Assembly (NCBI RefSeq): GCF_011761265.1
Contig: NZ_JAAOZB010000001.1
Location: 310,001 to 374,000, forward strand
Source of the DNA: Microbacterium halimionae
Lineage (GTDB): Bacteria; Actinomycetota; Actinomycetes; Actinomycetales; Microbacteriaceae
Length of the DNA: 64,000 bases
Reading direction: 5' to 3'
Position 1 is the stretch's first letter. Each line of letters begins with the position of its first letter. The position numbers and the translations under genes are program-made. The notes below the pieces were generated by a model. It worked only from the letters and a program-made list of their open reading frames with translations, was not told the DNA's origin and made no database searches. Below are positions 12,310 through 34,947 of the stretch, piece after piece.

Positions 12310-12438
12310 GTCACGTGCCCCTGTTCTTCTCGAAAGAACTCTACGAGAATGACTACAACTTCGAAGCATCTTCGGGCGAAACATGCGCGACACGTGTTTC
12401 GAGGCAGTATCGCGGTAACAGAGCGAGAGAGGTTCGAC
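12310..12438. promoter_or_regulatory. divergent lrp-type/ald control region with two inverted repeats
   Basis: The 129-base gap between the regulator and ald holds two inverted repeats: GTTCTT at 12323-12328 with AAGAAC at 12334-12339, and CGAAACA at 12377-12383 with TGTTTCG at 12395-12401. Both could be binding sites for the adjacent Lrp-type protein, whose family typically binds several spaced degenerate palindromes. The assignment to that protein is inference. Confidence 0.5.
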
Positions 12439-13554
12439 ATGAAAATCGGTATCCCGACAGAACTGAAGAACAGCGAACGGCGCGTCGCGATCACACCCGA
12501 GGGCGTCGACGCCCTCGCGAGACGCGGACACGACGTTCTCATCGAGAAGGGTGCCGGCGCCGGAGCGCGTGTGCCCGACGAGGCCTACGTTGCCGCGGGG
12601 GCGCGAGTCAGCGCATCGGCCGACGATATCTGGGAGCACGGCGATCTACTTCTCAAGGTGAAAGAGCCCATCGCTCCAGAATTCTCGCGCATGCGCGCTG
12701 ATCAAGTGCTCTTCACGTATCTGCACCTCGCAGCATCCGTTGAGTGCGCGAATGCGCTGCTACAGGCCGGCACGACAGCAATCGCCTACGAAACAGTCCA
12801 AACTGCCGACCGCAAGTTGCCGCTCCTGGCACCGATGAGCGAAATCGCTGGACGCCTCTCTGTGCTCGCTGGCGCACACCACCTGATGAGTCCCCTTGGC
12901 GGACGCGGCACCCTCCTCGGTGGGATCGCCGGAGCACGGGCGGCGAAGGTTGTCGTTCTGGGCGGCGGCGTCGCCGGTGAGCACGCAATTCGGAACGCTG
13001 TCGGAATGGGTGCGGACGTCACAGTGCTCGACCTTTCATTGCCGCGTTTGCGCGAGTTACAGGCCGAGTTCGGGCCAGCTCTTCGCACGCGAGTTTCCAC
13101 TCCGCTCGAAATAGCGGCTCAGGTGAGTGAGGCTGATCTCGTTATCGGCGCGGTGCTGGTTCCTGGCGCGACAGCTCCACGGCTCGTCACCACCGACATG
13201 GTGGCGACGATGCCCGAAGGATCGGTACTCGTCGATATCGCGATCGATCAGGGCGGATGCTTCGAAGGCTCCAAACCGACGACGTACTCCGACCCGACCT
13301 TTGCCGTGCACAGCTCGCAGTATTACTGCGTCGCGAATATGCCTGGCGCTGTGCCAGAAACCGCCACTCGTGCCCTCACGAACGCCACGCTCCCCTACGT
13401 GATTGCCCTCGCAGAACGCGGATGGCGTGCCGCAGTGCGCACCGATCCGGCACTTGCCGCGGGACTCAACACCCACGCCGGGTTGGTCACGAATGCACCC
13501 GTGGCGGCGGCCCTCGGAACACAGTTTGTTGCGCCGACCGATCTTCCAGTGTGA
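12439..13554 (+). CDS. ald: alanine dehydrogenase
   Basis: A 371-residue protein, the normal length. It catalyses the reversible NAD-dependent oxidative deamination of L-alanine to pyruvate and ammonia. The start MKIGIPTELKNSERRVAITP, the catalytic lysine region LLLKVKEP, the FTYLHLAAS block with the active histidine, the Rossmann motif VVLGGGVAGEHA near residue 175, and the VADxAIDQGG-like VLVDIAIDQGGC block all fit. The ATG at 12439 follows GAGAGAGG. It is divergent from an Lrp/AsnC regulator, the usual control for ald. Confidence 0.96.
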   Translation: MKIGIPTELKNSERRVAITPEGVDALARRGHDVLIEKGAGAGARVPDEAYVAAGARVSASADDIWEHGDLLLKVKEPIAPEFSRMRADQVLFTYLHLAASVECANALLQAGTTAIAYETVQTADRKLPLLAPMSEIAGRLSVLAGAHHLMSPLGGRGTLLGGIAGARAAKVVVLGGGVAGEHAIRNAVGMGADVTVLDLSLPRLRELQAEFGPALRTRVSTPLEIAAQVSEADLVIGAVLVPGATAPRLVTTDMVATMPEGSVLVDIAIDQGGCFEGSKPTTYSDPTFAVHSSQYYCVANMPGAVPETATRALTNATLPYVIALAERGWRAAVRTDPALAAGLNTHAGLVTNAPVAAALGTQFVAPTDLPV

Positions 13555-13575: not shown

Positions 13576-15969
13576 ATGACACTGCTCGATCCCGCACCCA
13601 CCCCCGCGGGCGAGCAGGGCTCTGCGCGTTCAGCCCTGCTGGCAGCATCAGCTGGTCGAGAGCTGACTGCCGCAGAAACAGAAGCTCTTCTCGGCGCAAC
13701 GGGCGCTGATTTCGACGAGCTTCTTACACTCGCAAGTGCGTTGCGCGATGCGGGCCTCCACCACATCGGGCGCCCGGGCATCATCACCTACTCGCGCAAA
13801 GTTTTTGTGCCACTCACAACGCTCTGCCGCGACCGCTGTCACTACTGCGTTTTCGTGGACACCCCCGGTCAGCTGCTGAAAAAGAACAAGCCGGTGTTCA
13901 TGTCACCCGAGCAGGTGCTTGCTGTCGTGCAACAGGGCCACGCCCTCGGTTGCAAAGAAGTGCTGCTGACCCTCGGGGATCGTCCCGAAGAGCGCTGGCC
14001 CGAGGCACGTGCATGGCTCGATGAACACGGCTACGGCTCCACCCTTGACTACGTCGGCGATATCGCGCGGCGCATCACTGCCGAGACCGGGCTCCTCGCG
14101 CACCTGAACCCCGGCGTGATGACGTATGACGAACTCGTTGCGCTGCGTCCGACGGCACCATCGATGGGAATGATGCTCGAGACAACGTCGCGGCGCTTGT
14201 TCGAAGAACCCGGCCAAGTGCACTACGGCTCCCCCGACAAAGACCCCGACGTGCGACTCAAGGTCATCGACGACGCGGGGCGCGCCAGCATCCCGTTCAC
14301 CACCGGAATTCTCATCGGCATCGGCGAGACGCTGCGTGATCGTGCCGAGTCGCTGATCGCGCTTCGCGATTCCCACGCGCGCGGAGGACATGTGCAAGAA
14401 GTGATCGTGCAGAACTTCCGCGCGAAACCTCGGACCGCCATGGCTGGGGCGCCCGATGCGGAGCTTCGCGAGTACCTCGCTGCTGTCGCAACAGCGCGAG
14501 TTGTGATGGGCGCTGACATGCGCATCCAGGTGCCGCCGAACCTCTCCGACGTCACAGAGTTCGAGCTACTCGTTCGCGCTGGCATCGACGACTGGGGCGG
14601 GGTTTCACCGCTCACTGCCGACCACGTCAACCCGGAGCGCCCATGGCCGCACATTGACGAACTCGCTGAGCGCACCCGCGCCCTCGGTTTTGAACTGCAA
14701 GAACGCTTAACAGCTCACGCCGAGTTCATTCGTGACGCCGACCGCTGGATAGATCCAGAGCTCGCTCCGGCGGTGCACGCTCTCGCCGATCCGATATCAG
14801 GCTTGGCCGCTGCGATGCCCGCTACGAACGATGGTGCGACCGTCGATAGCGGCGTGACTCGCGATGCCGCGCCCTCGCGTTCCGGCGCAATCCGCCTACC
14901 CTCGACCGCACGTCAACTCGCCGAGCGCGCCGCCGCCGACCCGCTTTCGCTCGACGACAACGAGTGGGTGAGTTTGCTGCATGCGTCCGGTGGTGACCTT
15001 GACGCTCTCACCCAGACGGCCAACGATGTGCGCCGTTACACGGTCGGTGAAGCCGTGAGTCTTGTGGTCAATCGCAACCTGACATCTTCGGGGCTGAGGG
15101 CTCGGGCATCCGACGACGAATCGACATTCACGCTCGACGATGTCCCGGCGATCGCGCGCGACGCATGGGAGCTCGGCGCGACCGAAATCTGCGTGCAGGG
15201 CATGATTCCAGCCGACGTCGACGCGGGTGCATACCCCGCGATTGCGCGATCCATCAAGGCCGCAACACCGCATATGCACGTACATGCATATCGCCCACAA
15301 GACGTTTGGGACTTCGCCGAGCGCAGTGGCCTCACTCTCGATGACGCACTCGCCGCGCTCCGCGATGCCGGTGTCGACACCATGCCGGGCACCGGCCTCA
15401 AGGTGCTGAGCGAACGGGTCCGCGAGCTTGTTGCCCCGGGCGACCTCGACATTGCTCGCTGGGTCGAGGCGATAACTGCCGCTCACCGCGCCGAGTTCCG
15501 CTCCACATCGGTGCTTTTCTACGGCCACGTCGAAACTGCGGCAGAGCGCATTTTGCACGTGCGGATGCTGCGGGAAATCCAGAATTCCACCGGCGGCTTC
15601 ACCGAATTCGTGCCCATCCCGCTTCCGGGTGGAGACGTGCCCCTCGTGCCGAGTCGAGCGCCGCTTGACGAACACCGCGCCATGGTCGCTGTCTCGCGTT
15701 TGCTGCTTTCAGGCTCGATCAGCCACATCCAGATTCCGTGGACAAGGCACGGGCGAGACGCCTCCGCTGCCCTCCTCAGCGCCGGCGGCGATGACCTCGG
15801 CGGCAGTCTGCTCGATGGCCGCGTGCTCCCTCGCACCGGCATCGAGCACGGCCAAGAGCTCGCCGTCGCGGACGCCGCACGGATTGCTCAACACCTCTTC
15901 CGCCCGTTCCGCCAACGCACGACCGAGTACCGGGAGCCCGCGGCAGGCCGAAAGATCGTTGTCCGATGA
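13576..15969 (+). CDS. fbiC: FbiC-like FO synthase with an intact CofG half and a CofH half lacking the iron-sulfur motif
   Basis: A 797-residue protein aligned over its length with bifunctional CofG-CofH FO synthase (7,8-didemethyl-8-hydroxy-5-deazariboflavin for F420). The CofG half has the radical-SAM motif CRDRCHYC (C84, C88, C91), the CKEVLLTLGDRPEERW block and GGVSPLTADHVNPERPWP. The CofH half starts VVNRN at about 497-501, where the family continues with a CxxxCxxC motif; here the next about 22 residues (LTSSGLRARASDD...) contain no cysteine and are about 11 residues shorter. Later CofH blocks remain (MHVHAYRPQD, MPGTG, LFYGHVET, GGFTEFVPIPL, HGxxxxAVADAARIA-like end, RPFRQRTTEY). The reading frame is unbroken. 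It overlaps the next gene by four bases. Confidence 0.9.
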   Translation: MTLLDPAPTPAGEQGSARSALLAASAGRELTAAETEALLGATGADFDELLTLASALRDAGLHHIGRPGIITYSRKVFVPLTTLCRDRCHYCVFVDTPGQLLKKNKPVFMSPEQVLAVVQQGHALGCKEVLLTLGDRPEERWPEARAWLDEHGYGSTLDYVGDIARRITAETGLLAHLNPGVMTYDELVALRPTAPSMGMMLETTSRRLFEEPGQVHYGSPDKDPDVRLKVIDDAGRASIPFTTGILIGIGETLRDRAESLIALRDSHARGGHVQEVIVQNFRAKPRTAMAGAPDAELREYLAAVATARVVMGADMRIQVPPNLSDVTEFELLVRAGIDDWGGVSPLTADHVNPERPWPHIDELAERTRALGFELQERLTAHAEFIRDADRWIDPELAPAVHALADPISGLAAAMPATNDGATVDSGVTRDAAPSRSGAIRLPSTARQLAERAAADPLSLDDNEWVSLLHASGGDLDALTQTANDVRRYTVGEAVSLVVNRNLTSSGLRARASDDESTFTLDDVPAIARDAWELGATEICVQGMIPADVDAGAYPAIARSIKAATPHMHVHAYRPQDVWDFAERSGLTLDDALAALRDAGVDTMPGTGLKVLSERVRELVAPGDLDIARWVEAITAAHRAEFRSTSVLFYGHVETAAERILHVRMLREIQNSTGGFTEFVPIPLPGGDVPLVPSRAPLDEHRAMVAVSRLLLSGSISHIQIPWTRHGRDASAALLSAGGDDLGGSLLDGRVLPRTGIEHGQELAVADAARIAQHLFRPFRQRTTEYREPAAGRKIVVR

Positions 15970-17489
15970 GCGCTCCCCGCGCGACGATGACCGTCGACGA
16001 ACTCATCGTTGGGGCAGGTTTCGCCGGTATCGGCATGGCACTCCAACTTCAGCGCAGTGGCCGATCGAACTTCGCGATCATCGAGCGCGGGGCATCCGTC
16101 GGTGGCACCTGGCGCGACAACACCTATCCGGGTGTTGCGTGCGACGTACCGAGCCACCTCTACGGCTTCGCGTCGCACCCCAATCCAGAATGGTCGGCGC
16201 TCTTCGCGCGCGGTGATGAGATTCACGGTTACCTGCAGAAGATTGTGCGCGATGAACGCCTTGAGGGGCAGCTTCTCCTCAACACCACGCTCACGAACGC
16301 CCAATGGGATGCCGCCCGCTCGTTGTGGGTTGTTTCTATCTCGGGCGATGCACCCGGTGTGATCGAAGCGAGCACTCTCGTGCTGGCATGCGGCCGCTTG
16401 ACGGAGCCGGTGATCCCCGACGTGCCAGGCCTTGACACTTTCACCGGTCCGCTGTTCCACTCCGCCCGCTGGGACCACAACGCGGAGCTTGCTGGCAAGC
16501 GCGTTGCCGTCATTGGCACCGGAGCCTCGGCGGTGCAGCTTGTTCCCGAGCTCGCCCGAACGACGGCACACGTCACGGTATTTCAGCGCACAGCGCCCTG
16601 GATTGTGCCGCGCGATGCGCGCCGATATTCCGCCGAGGAACTTTCCACGTTTCGTGACGATCCGGCAGCGCTCGCGCGGCTGCGTGAGGAGCTGTATTTC
16701 GAAGGTGAAGCGCGGTACGCCGCGCGTTCAGGCGACGCCGCCGCGGCAGCTGACGCGACAGCGATTGCCGATGCGCACCGAGAGGCGCACGTCGCCGATC
16801 CAGCGCTTCGAGCTGCACTTCGGCCCACGTACGCGTTCGGTTGCAAGCGCGTCTTACTCTCAGACGACTACTACCCCGCGGTGGCGTCCGACAGGGTGAC
16901 AGTTGAGGCATCCGCTCTCGAAAGCGTCGCAGGCAGCACGCTGACCGCTGCGAGCGGCGAGCGCTACGACGTCGACATTGTGGTGTTGGCGACAGGTTTT
17001 GCCGCAGCGCAGCAGCCATATGCCCACCTGATCATGGGCGAGACCGGCCAGACCCTCGCTGAGCATTGGCACGCGGGCATGACATCGTTCGCCTCGACCG
17101 TCGTTTCAGGATTCCCGCAGATGTTCGTTCTCAACGGACCCAACGCCTCGCTTGGCCACAACTCTTCAGTGCTGATGGCCGAAGCACAGGCCGAGTACGT
17201 CACACAGTGCCTCGACCGCGCGCCTGGGCGTGGCGGCATCCTGCGGGTACGACCAGAAGCCGAGGCCGCATACAGCGCCGCGATCGATGTCGCTGCGGCC
17301 GCGACGCCGTGGATGAGCGGCGGATGTCACAACTGGTACGTCGACGACCGCTCTGGCCGCCTCACCCTGTTGTGGCCGGGAACCGTCCAGGCCTTCCGCG
17401 ACATGCTCGCCACCACCACCACCACCACCGGGGACGAGTTTTTTCCCACCGATGTTTGTTCACCGTCCGCTTCGATTGGAGCATCATGA
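15966..17489 (+). CDS. flavin-containing monooxygenase, Baeyer-Villiger type
   Basis: A 507-residue FAD- and NADPH-binding protein. The N-terminal Rossmann motif is GAGFAGIGMA near residue 17, the NADPH motif is GTGASAVQ near residue 180, and the Baeyer-Villiger fingerprint appears as FTGPLFHSARWDH just before it. Such enzymes insert oxygen next to a ketone; the substrate is unknown. The C-terminus carries six ACC threonine codons in a row (about 17412-17429), a simple repeat prone to slippage. It starts in the fbiC stop and ends in the fgd start (ATGA at both ends), so it is translated in one operon with F420 genes. Confidence 0.93.
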   Translation: MSAPRATMTVDELIVGAGFAGIGMALQLQRSGRSNFAIIERGASVGGTWRDNTYPGVACDVPSHLYGFASHPNPEWSALFARGDEIHGYLQKIVRDERLEGQLLLNTTLTNAQWDAARSLWVVSISGDAPGVIEASTLVLACGRLTEPVIPDVPGLDTFTGPLFHSARWDHNAELAGKRVAVIGTGASAVQLVPELARTTAHVTVFQRTAPWIVPRDARRYSAEELSTFRDDPAALARLREELYFEGEARYAARSGDAAAAADATAIADAHREAHVADPALRAALRPTYAFGCKRVLLSDDYYPAVASDRVTVEASALESVAGSTLTAASGERYDVDIVVLATGFAAAQQPYAHLIMGETGQTLAEHWHAGMTSFASTVVSGFPQMFVLNGPNASLGHNSSVLMAEAQAEYVTQCLDRAPGRGGILRVRPEAEAAYSAAIDVAAAATPWMSGGCHNWYVDDRSGRLTLLWPGTVQAFRDMLATTTTTTGDEFFPTDVCSPSASIGAS

Positions 17490-18499
17490 CAGTTCCCCTG
17501 CGCTTTGGCTACAAGGCATCCGCTGAGCAGTTCAACCCCGCCGAACTCGCCGACTTCGCCGTACTCGCCGAGGAATCGGGCTTCGATTCGGTGTTCATCT
17601 CCGACCACTTTCAGCCCTGGATGCACGAAGGCGGACACGCGCCCGCAGCACTCCCCTGGCTCGGAGCCGTCGGCGCACGCACGTCGCGGGTACTTCTCGG
17701 CACCTCAGTTCTGACCCCCACCTTTCGCTACCACCCCGCCGTCGTCGCTCAGGCATTCGCGACGCTGGGCGTGATGTTCCCGGGCCGCATCATCCTGGGC
17801 GTCGGCACCGGAGAAGCGCTCAACGAAGTGACCCTTGGCCTCGACTGGCCCGAAGCGCCCGAGCGGTTTCAGCGCCTCAAAGAGTCGATCATCCTCATGG
17901 AAAAGCTGTGGGCGGGCGAGCGCGTCACCTACGAAGGCAATTTCTGGAATGTGAAAGACGCCACGATCTACGACCGTCCCGAGACGCCGGTACCGATCTA
18001 CATCGGTGCCGCCGGCCCCGCCGCGACCCGCCTCGCGGGACGCATGGCGAACGGATTCATCACGACGAGCGGCAAAGATCGAGCGCTGTACACAGAGACA
18101 CTGCTTCCCGCCCTCGCTGAAGGCATAGACAAAGCGGGGCGTAGCTCCGACGACGTCGACACCCTCATGGAGGTCAAGGTGTCGCTCGCCGACACCCGCG
18201 AACAGGCACTCGAAAAAACGCGCTTCTGGGCACCCCTTGCACTCTCACCCGAAGAGAAAATGGGCGTCCACGACCCCATCGAGATGCAGCGACGTGCCGA
18301 TGAACTGCCGATCGAGCGCGCGGCATCCCGCTTCATCGTCTCGACCGATCCCGAAGAGCACGTCGAACGCATCGCCGAGTACGTCGACATGGGTTTCCGG
18401 CATTTGGTCTTCCACGACCCGGGATTCGACCAGGCCGGATTTTTGCGGATGTACGGCGAAGAGGTACTGCCGCGCCTCCGCGCCCGGTTCGGCGCCTAA
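17486..18499 (+). CDS. fgd: F420-dependent glucose-6-phosphate dehydrogenase
   Basis: A 337-residue TIM-barrel protein of the luciferase-like F420 family, close to mycobacterial Fgd1. Matching blocks are LRFGYKASAEQF at the start, SDHFQPWMHEGGHAP, LLGTSVLTPTFRYHP, LGVGTGEALNEV, TRFWAPLALSPEEK, DPIEMQRRADELPIE and the HLVFHDPGFDQ end. It oxidises glucose-6-phosphate to 6-phosphogluconolactone and reduces F420. The ATG at 17486 follows TTGGAG and overlaps the monooxygenase stop. The inverted-repeat element copy 2 begins 40 bases after its stop. Confidence 0.95.
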   Translation: MTVPLRFGYKASAEQFNPAELADFAVLAEESGFDSVFISDHFQPWMHEGGHAPAALPWLGAVGARTSRVLLGTSVLTPTFRYHPAVVAQAFATLGVMFPGRIILGVGTGEALNEVTLGLDWPEAPERFQRLKESIILMEKLWAGERVTYEGNFWNVKDATIYDRPETPVPIYIGAAGPAATRLAGRMANGFITTSGKDRALYTETLLPALAEGIDKAGRSSDDVDTLMEVKVSLADTREQALEKTRFWAPLALSPEEKMGVHDPIEMQRRADELPIERAASRFIVSTDPEEHVERIAEYVDMGFRHLVFHDPGFDQAGFLRMYGEEVLPRLRARFGA

Positions 18500-18538: not shown

Positions 18539-18640
18539 CCTGCACGAACTCAGGCAATATTTGTCGTGCAGCAGCGGTGCATCGCGTGTTTCCGGCAATC
18601 CGGCACCGGAGCAGCAACATGCAGCCTGAGTACGTGCAGG
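18539..18640. repeat. inverted-repeat intergenic element, copy 2
   Basis: The arms are CCTGCACGAACTCAGGCA at 18539-18556 and AGCCTGAGTACGTGCAGG at 18623-18640, with two mismatches. It fills the gap between fgd and fbiD and its right arm extends into the start of the fbiD reading frame, encoding codons 2 to 8. The left arm is identical to the left arm of copy 1. Confidence 0.8.
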
Positions 18641-19260
18641 GCACGAGCGAAGCCCACGGCGCGTGGGTTGTCATTGTCCCCGTGAAACCGAGTGCCATCG
18701 GCAAGTCGCGGCTCGTCGGTGCCGGAATTGAGCGGATGCCACTAGCCCGAGCCATCGCACTCGACACGATTGCGGCGGCCGCTGCCGCGACCGAGGTGTC
18801 ACGCGTCATCGTGGTCACCGACGATGAGCTCATCGCAGCGGAGTGTGCACCCGTCGCGGGGGTCGAGGTCGTGGCCGAAGGCGCGGCATCCGGTCTGAAT
18901 GCTGCCATCGCACACGGTGCTGCTCAGGCCGACGGCACCTATCGAGCAGCGCTGCTGGGCGATCTTCCCGCCCTGCGCCCAACCGACCTCGACCAGGCGC
19001 TACGTGCGGCACTCGGTGTGGACCGCGCTGTTGTTCCGGATGCCGAAGGCACCGGGTCGACGCTCGTCACTGCCCGTGTCGGCGTAGCGTGGCGAAGCGA
19101 GTTCGGTGCCGATTCGTTCGAACGGCACCGAACTGCCGGGTTTGCGCCGCTAACTCTCCGCGTCGACTCGTCTCTCCGACGAGACGTCGATACGCTCGCG
19201 CAACTGAACGACGCGAAAGCGTTGGGCCTCGGCCCGCGCACGCATCAGCTCGTCAGTTGA
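18619..19260 (+). CDS. fbiD: phospho(enol)pyruvate/2-phospholactate guanylyltransferase of F420 synthesis
   Basis: A 213-residue CofC/FbiD-type nucleotidyltransferase. It activates phosphoenolpyruvate or 2-phospholactate with GTP to give the donor used by FbiA. The family pattern is WVVIVPVKPSAIGKSRL (residues about 16-32), then VIVVTDDE, EGAASGLNAAIAHG, and ALLGDLPALRPTDL with the metal-binding aspartate. The ATG at 18619 follows GGAG at good spacing. The first eight codons lie in an inverted-repeat element, giving an N-terminal stretch (MQPEYVQG) that is longer than the few residues family members usually have before the first strand. A GTG at codon 6 is the only other in-frame start there. 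Confidence 0.9.
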   Translation: MQPEYVQGTSEAHGAWVVIVPVKPSAIGKSRLVGAGIERMPLARAIALDTIAAAAAATEVSRVIVVTDDELIAAECAPVAGVEVVAEGAASGLNAAIAHGAAQADGTYRAALLGDLPALRPTDLDQALRAALGVDRAVVPDAEGTGSTLVTARVGVAWRSEFGADSFERHRTAGFAPLTLRVDSSLRRDVDTLAQLNDAKALGLGPRTHQLVS

Positions 19261-20602: not shown

Positions 20603-21562
20603 TCAGCGGCCGGCGGAAATTGCGGCCACGGCGAGCGCTTCTGCGGTCTCGGCATCGCGCATCCACAGCGGTACGACGTCGACGGAGATACCCAGGGCCT
20701 CGACGGATGCCGCAAGCTCAGCGTCTTCTTCGGCTATCAGCCACGTGTCGAGCACGCCGCCGTCGAGGCGCGCACCGTAGTGGGCAGCTACCGCGTCGGC
20801 CGCTGTGCGAACGCCCACGGCGCCGAGGCATACGTCGGCCATACCGCGGACGACGTTGCCCCCGATGATGGGCGACACTCCGATGACGGGGCCACCGGTT
20901 GCTCGCAGGGCTTCACGGATTTCGGGCACGGCCAAGATCGGGCCAATCGACACCACGGGGTTCGACGGCGCGATCAGCACGAGGTCGGCGTCTTCGATGG
21001 CCTCGACAACACCGGGCGCCGCGAACGAGCCGGCAATGCCGGGGTTCTCGAAGCCCGCGGGCGGCAGTTGGGCGCGATATCTCGTCCACCACTCCTGAAA
21101 GTGCAGCCGCTCGCCGTTCTTCAGCAGCACGTGGGTGTCTACTTCGTCGTCGGTCATCGGCAGCAGCTTCGCGCCGAGCGGCCACCGCTTCGACAACCGC
21201 TCGAGTACTTCTGTGGGGCTCAGCCCGTCGCGCAACCACCCGGTGCGAGCGATGTGCGTGCCGAGGTCGAGGTCTCCGAGAGTGAACCACGGCCACCCCG
21301 TACCCCAGGCCTGCAGCTCGGTGTTCACACGCTCGGTGTCGCCGGCTCGGCCCCACCCGCGTTCGGTGTCGTTCGCTCCGGCGAGCGCGTAAATCATCGA
21401 GTCAACGTCTGGTTGAAGCCGCACACCCGACAACCAGATGTCGTCTCCGGTGTTGACGATGACTGTCGCCTCGGGCTCACCGAGCGTTGCAAGCGCAGCG
21501 CGCACGCCGAGGGTGAATTTCGACCCGCCGACGCCGCCGGCGAGTACGACGACTCCACTCAC
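20603..21562 (-). CDS. fbiA: 2-phospho-L-lactate (or PEP) transferase of F420 synthesis
   Basis: A 319-residue CofD/FbiA protein that joins the phospholactyl or phosphoenolpyruvyl group to FO to give F420-0 or its dehydro form. It opens with [17 protein letters not shown], then [70 protein letters not shown] and [16 protein letters not shown], all family blocks. The GTG start overlaps the hemL stop by four bases, so an F420 gene is translationally coupled to the end of the heme operon. FbiB is not in the window. Confidence 0.94.
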
Positions 21563-22911
21563 GGACGCACTGCCTCCGCGGCCGCCCGCGCGGCCCTCGG
21601 CAGCGCGGCGAGCACGCGCGCGAGAGCGTCGTCGTCGTGGGCCGCGGTCAAGAACCAGGCTTCGAACACGCTCGGCGGCAGCGAAACTCCGGAATCGAGC
21701 ATCGCGTGGAAGAACGCCGGGTAACGCCACGATTCTTGCTCGAGAGCTTCGGCGTACCTGCGCGGAGCCTCGTCGGCAAACACAACGCCGAACAACGAGC
21801 CCGCACGCGGCACGGCGTGCGCGATACCCTCCATCGCCAGCGCTCCCGAGAGCGCGGTCGAAACAGCGGATGCCGCAGCATCCACTCGCGCGTAGACCTC
21901 AGGGGTTGCAAGCCTCAGCGTCGCAAGTCCTGCCGCGACCGAAAGCGGGTTGCCCGACAGCGTGCCCGCTTGGTAGACGGGACCCAGGGGTGCAAGTGAG
22001 TCCATGACATCGGCGCGTCCTCCGAGGGCGGCCAGAGGCATCCCGCCGCCGACGACCTTGCCGAAGGCAAAGATGTCGGGGGTGTAGATTTCCCCCGCTT
22101 CTTGCTGGAGCCCCCAGTAGCCGGCGGGGTGCACCCGGAAACCCGTGAGCACCTCATCGAGGATAAGGAGTGCCCCGTGCTCGTGCGTGATGTCGGCGAG
22201 CGCGGCGTTGTAGCCGGCATCGGGCGCAACAACGCCCATGTTGGCCGCGGCGGCCTCAACGATGACACCGGCGATCTTGTCGCCGTGCACGGCGAACACC
22301 TCTCGCACAGCGTCAAGGTCGTTGTACGGCAAGACGAGGGTTTGCGCGGCAATCGGAGCCGGCACCCCGGCCGAGCCCGGCAAAGCGAGGGTTGCCACGC
22401 CAGATCCAGCCGCCGCAAGCAGTCCGTCGGAGTGGCCGTGGTAGTGCCCGGCGAACTTCACGAGCAGGTCGCGACCGGTATATCCGCGAGCGAGGCGAAT
22501 CGCCGTCATCGTGGCTTCTGTGCCGGTCGAAACCAAACGCACGCGCTCGACGGGGCGACGAACCTCAGCGCCTTCACCCGGCGCAACAACACGCTCAGAG
22601 ATCACGGTGGCGAGGTCGACCTCAGCCTCGGTGGGCGCACCGAACGACAGACCGCGGGATGCCGCATCCTGCACCGCCGCGACAACCTCGGGGTGAGCGT
22701 GGCCCAGCAGCGCCGGGCCCCACGACGCCACGAGGTCGACATAAGAGGTACCCGCAGCGTCCGTCACGTACGGTCCTGTTGCCGAAGCAAGAAAACGCGG
22801 GGCTCCGCCAACGGAGCCGTAGGCGCGCACGGGAGAGTTCACTCCTCCCGGAATCACTTCGCGCGCATGGGCGAAGAGGTCGTCGTTACGGTCGTGAGTC
22901 GGCTGATTCAC
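21559..22911 (-). CDS. hemL: glutamate-1-semialdehyde 2,1-aminomutase
   Basis: A 450-residue PLP enzyme converting glutamate-1-semialdehyde to 5-aminolevulinate in the C5 route of heme synthesis. The PLP lysine lies in [20 protein letters not shown]; other blocks are [15 protein letters not shown] near the N-terminus, [20 protein letters not shown] and [13 protein letters not shown]. The GTG start follows AAGGAGG. It is 9 bases downstream of hemB and coupled to fbiA at its 3' end. HemA, the enzyme making its substrate, is encoded divergently at the other end of the cluster. Confidence 0.97.
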
Positions 22912-34134: not shown

Positions 34135-34947
34135 TCAGAACGTCGTCAGACCGCGCGATCGAAACTGCTCGCGCACGCGCTCGAGGAGTTCCGGTTCGGG
34201 CGAGCGAGTGTCGGTGAGCGAGTACGGCTTGTTGAGGCGTTCCCACTTCGAGATGCCCATTTGGTGAAACGGCAGCACTTCGACGCGTTCGACGTTTGGC
34301 CACTTCGCGACGATGTCGGCGGCAGCGTCAACGTTGTCGACGGCATCCGTCAGCCCTGGCACGAGCACGAAGCGCACCCATGCGGGCACGTGCCGCGCGG
34401 CGAGTCTGTTGCCAAAGTCGATCGTCGGCTGCAGCTCGCGCCCCGTCACTTCGCGATAGGTCTCGGGCAGGCCAGACTTCACGTCGAGCAGCACGAGACT
34501 CAAGTCGTCGAGCAGAGCGTCGGAGGCGTTTCGCCCCAAAAACCCCGAGGTATCAAGAGCCGTGCGGATGCCGAGAGCCGCTGTCTCGCGAACGAGCCGC
34601 GTCACGAACCTGGCCTGCTGCAACGGTTCGCCGCCCGAGATCGTGAGGCCGCCGCCCGTGGTCTCGAAGACGCTGCGGTAGCGGACTACCCGGGCGAAGA
34701 TCTCGTCGAAAGACGTCTCCGTGCCGTTTCGCTGCAGCCAGGTGTCGGGGTTTTGGCAGTACTGGCACCGCAGCGGGCACCCTGACAAAAACAGTGTCAT
34801 GCGAGTCCCCGGGCCATCAACAGCCGTCACGAGTTCCCAAGAGTGCACACTCGCAACGTCTCCCCGACGCACCGCGCCGAGGTGCGCGTGACGCTCCTCG
34901 GCGCGGTCGGAGATGACCGTCGGTGTGGATAGTGAGACGGTCGCCAT
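34135..34947 (-). CDS. pflA: pyruvate formate-lyase activating enzyme
   Basis: A 270-residue radical-SAM protein. The cluster motif is CPLRCQYC following the SWELVTAVDGPGTRMTLFLSG-type start (VDGPGTRMTLFLSGC), and the GGLTISGGEPLQQ block binds S-adenosylmethionine. It makes the glycyl radical on PflB under anoxic conditions. The first about 30 residues are a polar extension relative to short activases. It is two bases downstream of pflB on the same strand, forming one operon. Confidence 0.95.
   Translation of the reverse strand: MATVSLSTPTVISDRAEERHAHLGAVRRGDVASVHSWELVTAVDGPGTRMTLFLSGCPLRCQYCQNPDTWLQRNGTETSFDEIFARVVRYRSVFETTGGGLTISGGEPLQQARFVTRLVRETAALGIRTALDTSGFLGRNASDALLDDLSLVLLDVKSGLPETYREVTGRELQPTIDFGNRLAARHVPAWVRFVLVPGLTDAVDNVDAAADIVAKWPNVERVEVLPFHQMGISKWERLNKPYSLTDTRSPEPELLERVREQFRSRGLTTF

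Follow-up and report, generated by a model that had tools for sequence, protein, structure and literature searches.

A 64,000-nucleotide stretch of the Microbacterium halimionae genome (contig NZ_JAAOZB010000001.1, positions 310,001 to 374,000; hereafter the window) encodes an FbiC-like fusion of CofG and CofH, the S-adenosylmethionine (SAM) radical proteins of FO (7,8-didemethyl-8-hydroxy-5-deazariboflavin) synthesis, in which the CofH half lacks the cysteines of the iron-sulfur cluster. The fusion likely still makes FO, because the putative type I Baeyer-Villiger monooxygenase (BVMO) encoded directly downstream is predicted to supply the 4-hydroxybenzyl unit with O2 and NADPH in place of the tyrosine radical chemistry. 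That the monooxygenase and the Cys-less CofH together replace the CofH step is held with good confidence, while the particular ester and quinone-methide chemistry described below is put forward tentatively. The features concerned are the following.

13576..15969, + strand: fbiC-like gene for a CofG-CofH fusion of 797 amino acids, in a single unbroken frame, the CofH half without iron-sulfur cysteines
13576..14808, + strand: CofG half, residues 1-411 (TIGR03550, 465.7 bits, cut-off 213.35)
13825-13848, + strand: CxxxCxxC of the CofG half, C84/C88/C91
14896..15966, + strand: Cys-less CofH half, residues 441-797, below the cut-off of TIGR03551, with columns conserved across 100 Cys-less sequences
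15079..15129, + strand: shortened, degenerate remnant of the cluster-binding loop, residues 502-518
15292..15294, + strand: codon of Arg573, a position that is Arg in 100/100 Cys-less CofH and Ser in 96% of 26 Cys-containing CofH
15966..17489, + strand: type I Baeyer-Villiger-like flavin monooxygenase, 507 amino acids, its start overlapping the fbiC stop (ATGA)
16440..16475, + strand: BVMO fingerprint FxGxxxHxxxW[PD], here FTGPLFHSARWD, residues 159-170

The preliminary description of this DNA had reported an intact cluster motif in the CofG half and, in an unbroken frame, a CofH half free of cysteines after VVNRN, and both observations stand: C84/C88/C91 form the only CxxxCxxC of the protein and, together with a TIGR03550 score above the cut-off, place the first half in CofG. 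Residues 497-501 read VVNRN, and the CofH half then continues with the cysteine-free LTSSGLRARASDDESTFTLDD; after NRN, the Cys-containing CofH proteins of the family have INFTNVCYTGCRFCAFAQRR, whereas the window protein has LTSSGLRARASDDESTF. The segment from NRN to the next TL comprises 17 residues in the window protein versus 26 in the Cys-containing CofH of locus L021, so that the loop is indeed shorter, as first described, but by 9 residues and not by about 11. The second half shares common descent with CofH, and TIGR03551 (CofH) is its best NCBIfam domain match, yet it lacks the CxxxCxxC and reaches only 309 bits against a cut-off of 374.1; the same profile gives 248.3 and 283.5 bits for the Cys-less proteins of L189 and L209 and 518.2 and 503.7 bits for the Cys-containing ones of L074 and L021. 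No hidden CxxxCxxC occurs in any of the six frames of positions 14980-15260, and all 119 other homologues among the matches listed (120 of 7998, almost all from Microbacterium where named) have one motif only, that of CofG. These two results rule out a frameshift or an assembly error, one of two outcomes that the preliminary description had named as fatal to its claim; the other, close relatives that all keep the cysteines, is the opposite of what was found. Such Cys-less fusions are currently annotated as FO synthase or CofG, names that call for correction.

The loss of the cysteines is a clade-wide trait and not an accident of one strain. A CofH set taken from whole genomes holds 126 distinct sequences, 26 with all three cysteines and 100 Cys-less, and none of the latter has a cysteine in any of the three cluster columns. 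In a tree from one alignment with the loop masked, the 100 form one branch that is split from the 26 with a support of 1.0, and since the Cys-less sequences form one clade, the loss was probably a single event. The Cys-less set keeps 68 columns that are conserved in Cys-containing CofH and has acquired fixed residues of its own, namely Arg573 (100/100), Glu653 (99%), Thr644 and Gly748 (98%) and Pro752 (97%). Two residues that are fixed in Cys-containing CofH have been lost from it, the Gly that follows QG and the Glu in GTAAE, which we take, from radical-SAM motifs, to be SAM-side positions. The segment of the lost loop is highly variable, in some sequences very short and in others expanded to a long repetitive insert, as expected for a loop that no longer holds a cluster. 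Long insertions, of repeat-like sequence in L285, enlarge the loop remnant in L285, L065, L066 and L146 and show how little constraint it is under. The ratio of nonsynonymous to synonymous substitution rates (dN/dS), computed for 7 of 9 pairs tried, is 0.10-0.20 in the Cys-less half versus 0.009-0.12 in the CofG half; the Cys-less half is therefore constrained, less so than CofG, and these values rule out decay after a loss of function.

In every locus that was read far enough, the monooxygenase accompanies the Cys-less form of CofH and no other. The FbiC protein matched 92 of 398 genomes that sample the family evenly; these comprise 66 Cys-less and 25 Cys-containing CofH and 1 fragment. The monooxygenase lies downstream on the same strand in 65 of the 66 Cys-less loci (gap of -18 to 1166 nt); at the 66th (G161) the contig stops 154 nt past cofH, and the monooxygenase opens a second contig, preceded there by a truncated hydrolase gene. 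Near Cys-containing CofH it was found in 0 of 25 cases, 9 of them read at least 1.5 kb downstream and 16 judged by a monooxygenase search of their genomes (E-value limit 1e-60, with three candidates per genome scored), and in 2 of the 25 a 38-42% relative occurs elsewhere in the genome. A named sample from GTDB (best 80 of 478 loci), which shares part of its genomes with the family sample, has the partner in 62/62 Cys-less versus 0/18 Cys-containing loci, 17 of the 18 read beyond 1.5 kb; the sampled genomes are related, so these counts are not numbers of independent events. The first genome sample also included six matches from outside the family: a Cys-less CofH with the partner monooxygenase occurs in G041 and G048, a Cys-containing one lacking this partner in G049, G052 and G056, and the fragmented G050 was assigned to neither form. 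A single branch (support 0.999) in the tree calculated for 120 monooxygenases parts 94 CofH-linked sequences from 26 unlinked ones.

By all sequence tests applied, the window monooxygenase has the features of a type I BVMO: besides the fingerprint, it has the second motif [AG]GxWxxxx[FY]P[GM]xxxD, as GGTWRDNTYPGVACD, two Rossmann motifs GxGxx[GA] (GAGFAG, residues 16-21, and GTGASA, residues 184-189) and the catalytic Arg and Asp, the motif definitions being those of PMC6058054. Its Arg295 and Asp60 were aligned to cyclohexanone monooxygenase (CHMO); PMC4966971 describes, for a BVMO from a fungus, the catalytic roles of Arg337 and Asp63. Among the matches listed, 113 of 120 monooxygenase homologues have the fingerprint; in the wider set of CofH-linked proteins, Asp60, His165 and Arg295 are kept in 94/94. 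The protein thus resembles the known type I enzymes (cyclohexanone, steroid and phenylacetone monooxygenases) in both motifs and in the Asp and Arg equivalents, and its profile matches the chains of CHMO and phenylacetone monooxygenase with about 240 bits; it differs from them in its linkage to cofactor synthesis and in belonging to a branch of its own, marked by Gly83, Arg144, Ala394 and Leu468. The partner is now named a CzcO-like, flavin-containing or hydroxyacetophenone monooxygenase, and this annotation too should be corrected. In one database protein, P0127 (705 amino acids), the monooxygenase is fused to CofC, a further hint that it belongs to F420 synthesis. P0143, a candidate fusion of CofH and monooxygenase, was not counted, since the sequence at the junction looks like the end of CofH in a shifted frame.

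How the two proteins could act together is best seen against the established route, in which, according to PMC8498797, all studied producers make FO by two SAM-radical domains: a SAM radical in CofH breaks tyrosine, the p-hydroxybenzyl unit is joined to 5-amino-6-ribitylaminouracil, and CofG then closes the ring. The same source states that CofH normally requires oxidation by its cluster and that the FbiC halves appear to transfer the product by diffusion. For the Cys-less form, we infer that the monooxygenase would act on a ketone derived from tyrosine, in the simplest case 4-hydroxyphenylpyruvate, and insert oxygen beside its carbonyl. Placed in the bond that joins this carbonyl to the benzylic carbon, the oxygen would turn the ketone into a 4-hydroxybenzyl ester with a good leaving group. 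Loss of this group would give a p-quinone methide, and capture of the latter by the nucleophilic pyrimidine C5 of 5-amino-6-ribitylaminouracil would give the normal CofH product with no radical. The Cys-less CofH barrel, predicted to bind both partners, would guide the addition without SAM or a cluster, with Arg573 perhaps holding an acid group, and the intact CofG half would then close the ring to FO by radical chemistry. Some genera have, between fbiC and the monooxygenase, a gene for an alpha/beta-hydrolase, and this enzyme is predicted to assist in cleaving the ester. No report of the CofH-monooxygenase pairing was found among the titles and opening lines of abstracts in the literature searched, which leaves most subscription journals outside its coverage.

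A related hydrolase gene separates fbiC from the monooxygenase in some of the Microbacteriaceae and also in G608, and an alpha/beta-hydrolase gene adjoins the monooxygenase in 12 of the 26 unlinked loci. These sister monooxygenases, whose fetched loci lack CofH, are those of L167, L168, L169, L170, L171, L197, L207 and L220-L224. A monooxygenase-hydrolase pair that makes and opens esters is the probable ancestral unit, which CofH joined later.

Several observations weigh against the proposed replacement of the CofH step. The 12 sister loci indicate that the monooxygenase-hydrolase pair has a different job as well, probably an older one; the hydrolase was not found in the Microbacterium loci read, and in L043 it has lost its Ser. 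The substrate of the monooxygenase is a guess from fold and motif, and only 67 of the 94 linked proteins end the fingerprint with Asp or Pro. In CofH, 98 columns conserved in the Cys-containing form have changed, the SAM-side ones not alone, and dN/dS is higher in the Cys-less half in 7/7 pairs, a comparison made with CofG only, so that this half may be under somewhat relaxed constraint. FO is fluorescent, and a Streptomyces venezuelae strain deleted for fbiC is described in PMC12282290 as having lost its autofluorescence. No measurement of FO or F420 in any Cys-less species was found in the literature searched.

Among the alternatives, the one that survives best, though still unlikely, is that the CofH half persists as a structural remnant, with tyrosine cleavage taken over by the CofG half, and that the monooxygenase-like flavoprotein only oxidises or reduces an intermediate. 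It would account for the complete CofG motif and for fusion as the common form in the family, and the oxidation by the CofH cluster (described in PMC8498797) could be taken over by a flavoprotein. A remnant is at odds with the 68 columns kept in CofH and with the gain of an invariant Arg, and the gene orders speak against it as well. The Cys-less cofH and the monooxygenase remain together where cofG is found on a different contig (G198 and Actinoplanes lutulentus) or forms a gene of its own (Kineococcus-type loci); the partner of the monooxygenase is therefore CofH and not CofG. The same pairing is kept in L069 and L283, where cofG is elsewhere, and L209, outside the order, has the gene order cofH-monooxygenase-cofG. 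Loci from three other families were chosen via monooxygenase matches: two of these families, both of the same order (f8 and f15), have separate cofG and cofH, with the monooxygenase following cofH and not cofG, and in the third (f9) cofG and cofH are fused.

A little less likely still is that FO is no longer made but taken up from neighbours for use by CofD, CofE and Fgd, FbiC and the monooxygenase doing something else. Further genes of F420 synthesis and use accompany the pair in the window.

17486..18499, + strand: fgd, F420-dependent glucose-6-phosphate dehydrogenase (TIGR03554, 463.1 bits, cut-off 420), its start, set by hand, overlapping the monooxygenase stop (ATGA)
18577..19260, + strand: cofC/fbiD (TIGR03552, 119.7 bits, cut-off 105)
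20603..21730, - strand: cofD/fbiA (TIGR01819, 308 bits, cut-off 257.45; PF01933)

The family match of cofD covers residues 60-370, so that its true start is likely further in. With cofE, which lies outside the window in the host genome (TIGR01916, over cut-off), the CofC, CofD, CofE and an F420 enzyme of the host all score above curated cut-offs, and the host should need FO. A genome note mentions an F420-dependent oxidoreductase in Microbacterium (PMC5408115). The preliminary description had argued from the operon with fgd for a working F420 system, an argument that holds, and had suggested a separate CofH elsewhere in the genome, for which no support was found: searches of the 99.9% complete genome (3 contigs) showed no other CofH, and the eight other Pfam radical-SAM matches are MoaA, MiaB, HemW, a Rv2578c-family protein, pyruvate-formate-lyase activase, LipA, RlmN and NrdG2. 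Its further option, that the altered half does something new, is the one favoured here, on account of the downstream monooxygenase that had gone unseen there and accompanies the Cys-less form only. A ThiH- or HydG-like radical-SAM substitute is ruled out by the identities of these eight matches. The pyruvate-formate-lyase activating enzyme is encoded at positions 34342-34788 of the window on the - strand (TIGR02493, over cut-off).

Within the genus, CofD is present in 20 of 35 genomes, 19 of which have both fbiC and the monooxygenase; the two genes occur in the identical 19 genomes, and neither is found in any of the 15 genomes without CofD. The exception, G002, has fgd, cofC and cofD but lacks both fbiC and the monooxygenase (L188, 328000-347900 of C3), as though the genes of FO synthesis could be lost as one unit; it is possibly a FO scavenger or a pathway in the course of loss, and use of external FO in the genus may exist. 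Uptake as the general rule is opposed by the distribution over the other genomes, by purifying selection on the relatives of the fbiC gene, by the operon that fbiC and the monooxygenase share with fgd and cofC in the window, two of its junctions being ATGA overlaps, and by the monooxygenase-CofC fusion in P0127.

Just as improbable is that the pair makes a modified deazaflavin instead of FO, for example from another aryl donor. In its favour, the columns of Arg573, Thr644, Glu653 and Gly748 change together, but CofC, CofD and Fgd score above the cut-offs of the ordinary F420 families and CofG is strongly conserved. Very improbable, finally, is a coincidence by descent, in which the monooxygenase neighboured the ancestor that lost the cysteines and merely stayed: although the Cys-less CofH proteins form one clade with probably one loss, the adjacency survives changed gene orders, the insertion of a hydrolase gene, a split-off cofG and a patchy distribution over several orders, none of the sampled unlinked monooxygenases groups within the linked branch, and fbiC and the monooxygenase are jointly present or absent in the genus.

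The replacement of the CofH step by the monooxygenase and the Cys-less CofH would extend over a broad range of actinobacteria. Named carriers of the Cys-less form include Terrabacter, Promicromonospora, Millisia, Gordonia, Aeromicrobium, an Actinomycetospora metagenome-assembled genome, Actinoplanes lutulentus and Kineococcus rubinsiae, and those looked up belong to the orders Micrococcales, Mycobacteriales, Propionibacteriales, Kineosporiales and Micromonosporales. A second CofH was found in none of 13 of the 14 named Cys-less genomes searched; the 14th, A. lutulentus, has two further weak CofH-like matches (34%). The two forms replace each other within the single genus Kineococcus, where K. 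rubinsiae has the Cys-less CofH with the monooxygenase and K. xinjiangensis the Cys-containing form (L296/L298). Three records titled Planococcus or Acidobacteria (L235, L276, L277) hold actinobacterial, Microbacteriaceae-like loci and are likely mislabelled or mis-binned. The recurrent neighbours in 14 loci of 7-14 kb, inspected with a rough picking of open reading frames (ORFs), are cofG, cofC, cofD, fgd and the hydrolase only; no further conserved neighbour, such as an aminotransferase for 4-hydroxyphenylpyruvate, was seen in them, and their unknown ORFs are each similar to at most one ORF of another locus. In the window, an alanine dehydrogenase gene (12349-13554, + strand; TIGR00518, over cut-off) ends 21 nt before fbiC, and among 40 regions compared a relative of it lies near fbiC in L073 only.

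Among known systems, the FO synthase formed by FbiC or by CofG and CofH is alike in the order of the fusion, the CofG half, the homology of the CofH barrel and the linkage to cofC, cofD and fgd, and differs from the window type, in which the CofH half has no CxxxCxxC loop, scores below the family cut-off and has a monooxygenase neighbour. By sequence, the best relative of the CofH half with a solved structure is the aminodeoxyfutalosine synthase MqnE (PDB 6xi9/6xig) of the CofH superfamily, a radical-SAM enzyme, from which the window protein differs by the absence of the cluster cysteines. HemN and HemF exemplify the exchange of an oxygen-independent radical-SAM enzyme and an oxygen-dependent enzyme at one step. 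The likeness would be that O2 replaces the SAM radical; the difference is that here the cluster-less radical-SAM protein itself is retained as the proposed coupling partner.

It is possible, though still a tentative view, that a former radical-SAM enzyme is now a cluster-free C-C coupling enzyme, fed by an O2-dependent BVMO, and that a second, aerobic route to FO exists across actinobacteria. FO synthesis is described as universal and as proceeding via two oxygen-sensitive radical-SAM domains in PMC8498797; if the above holds, there would be another way of carrying out this supposedly universal step. Many actinobacteria would then have exchanged one radical-SAM domain for an O2-dependent flavoenzyme, while the former barrel lives on as a catalyst that needs no radical. 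Nature would offer here an example of an enzyme that has left radical-SAM chemistry yet not its pathway, and a less oxygen-sensitive part would become available for the production of F420 in ordinary hosts.

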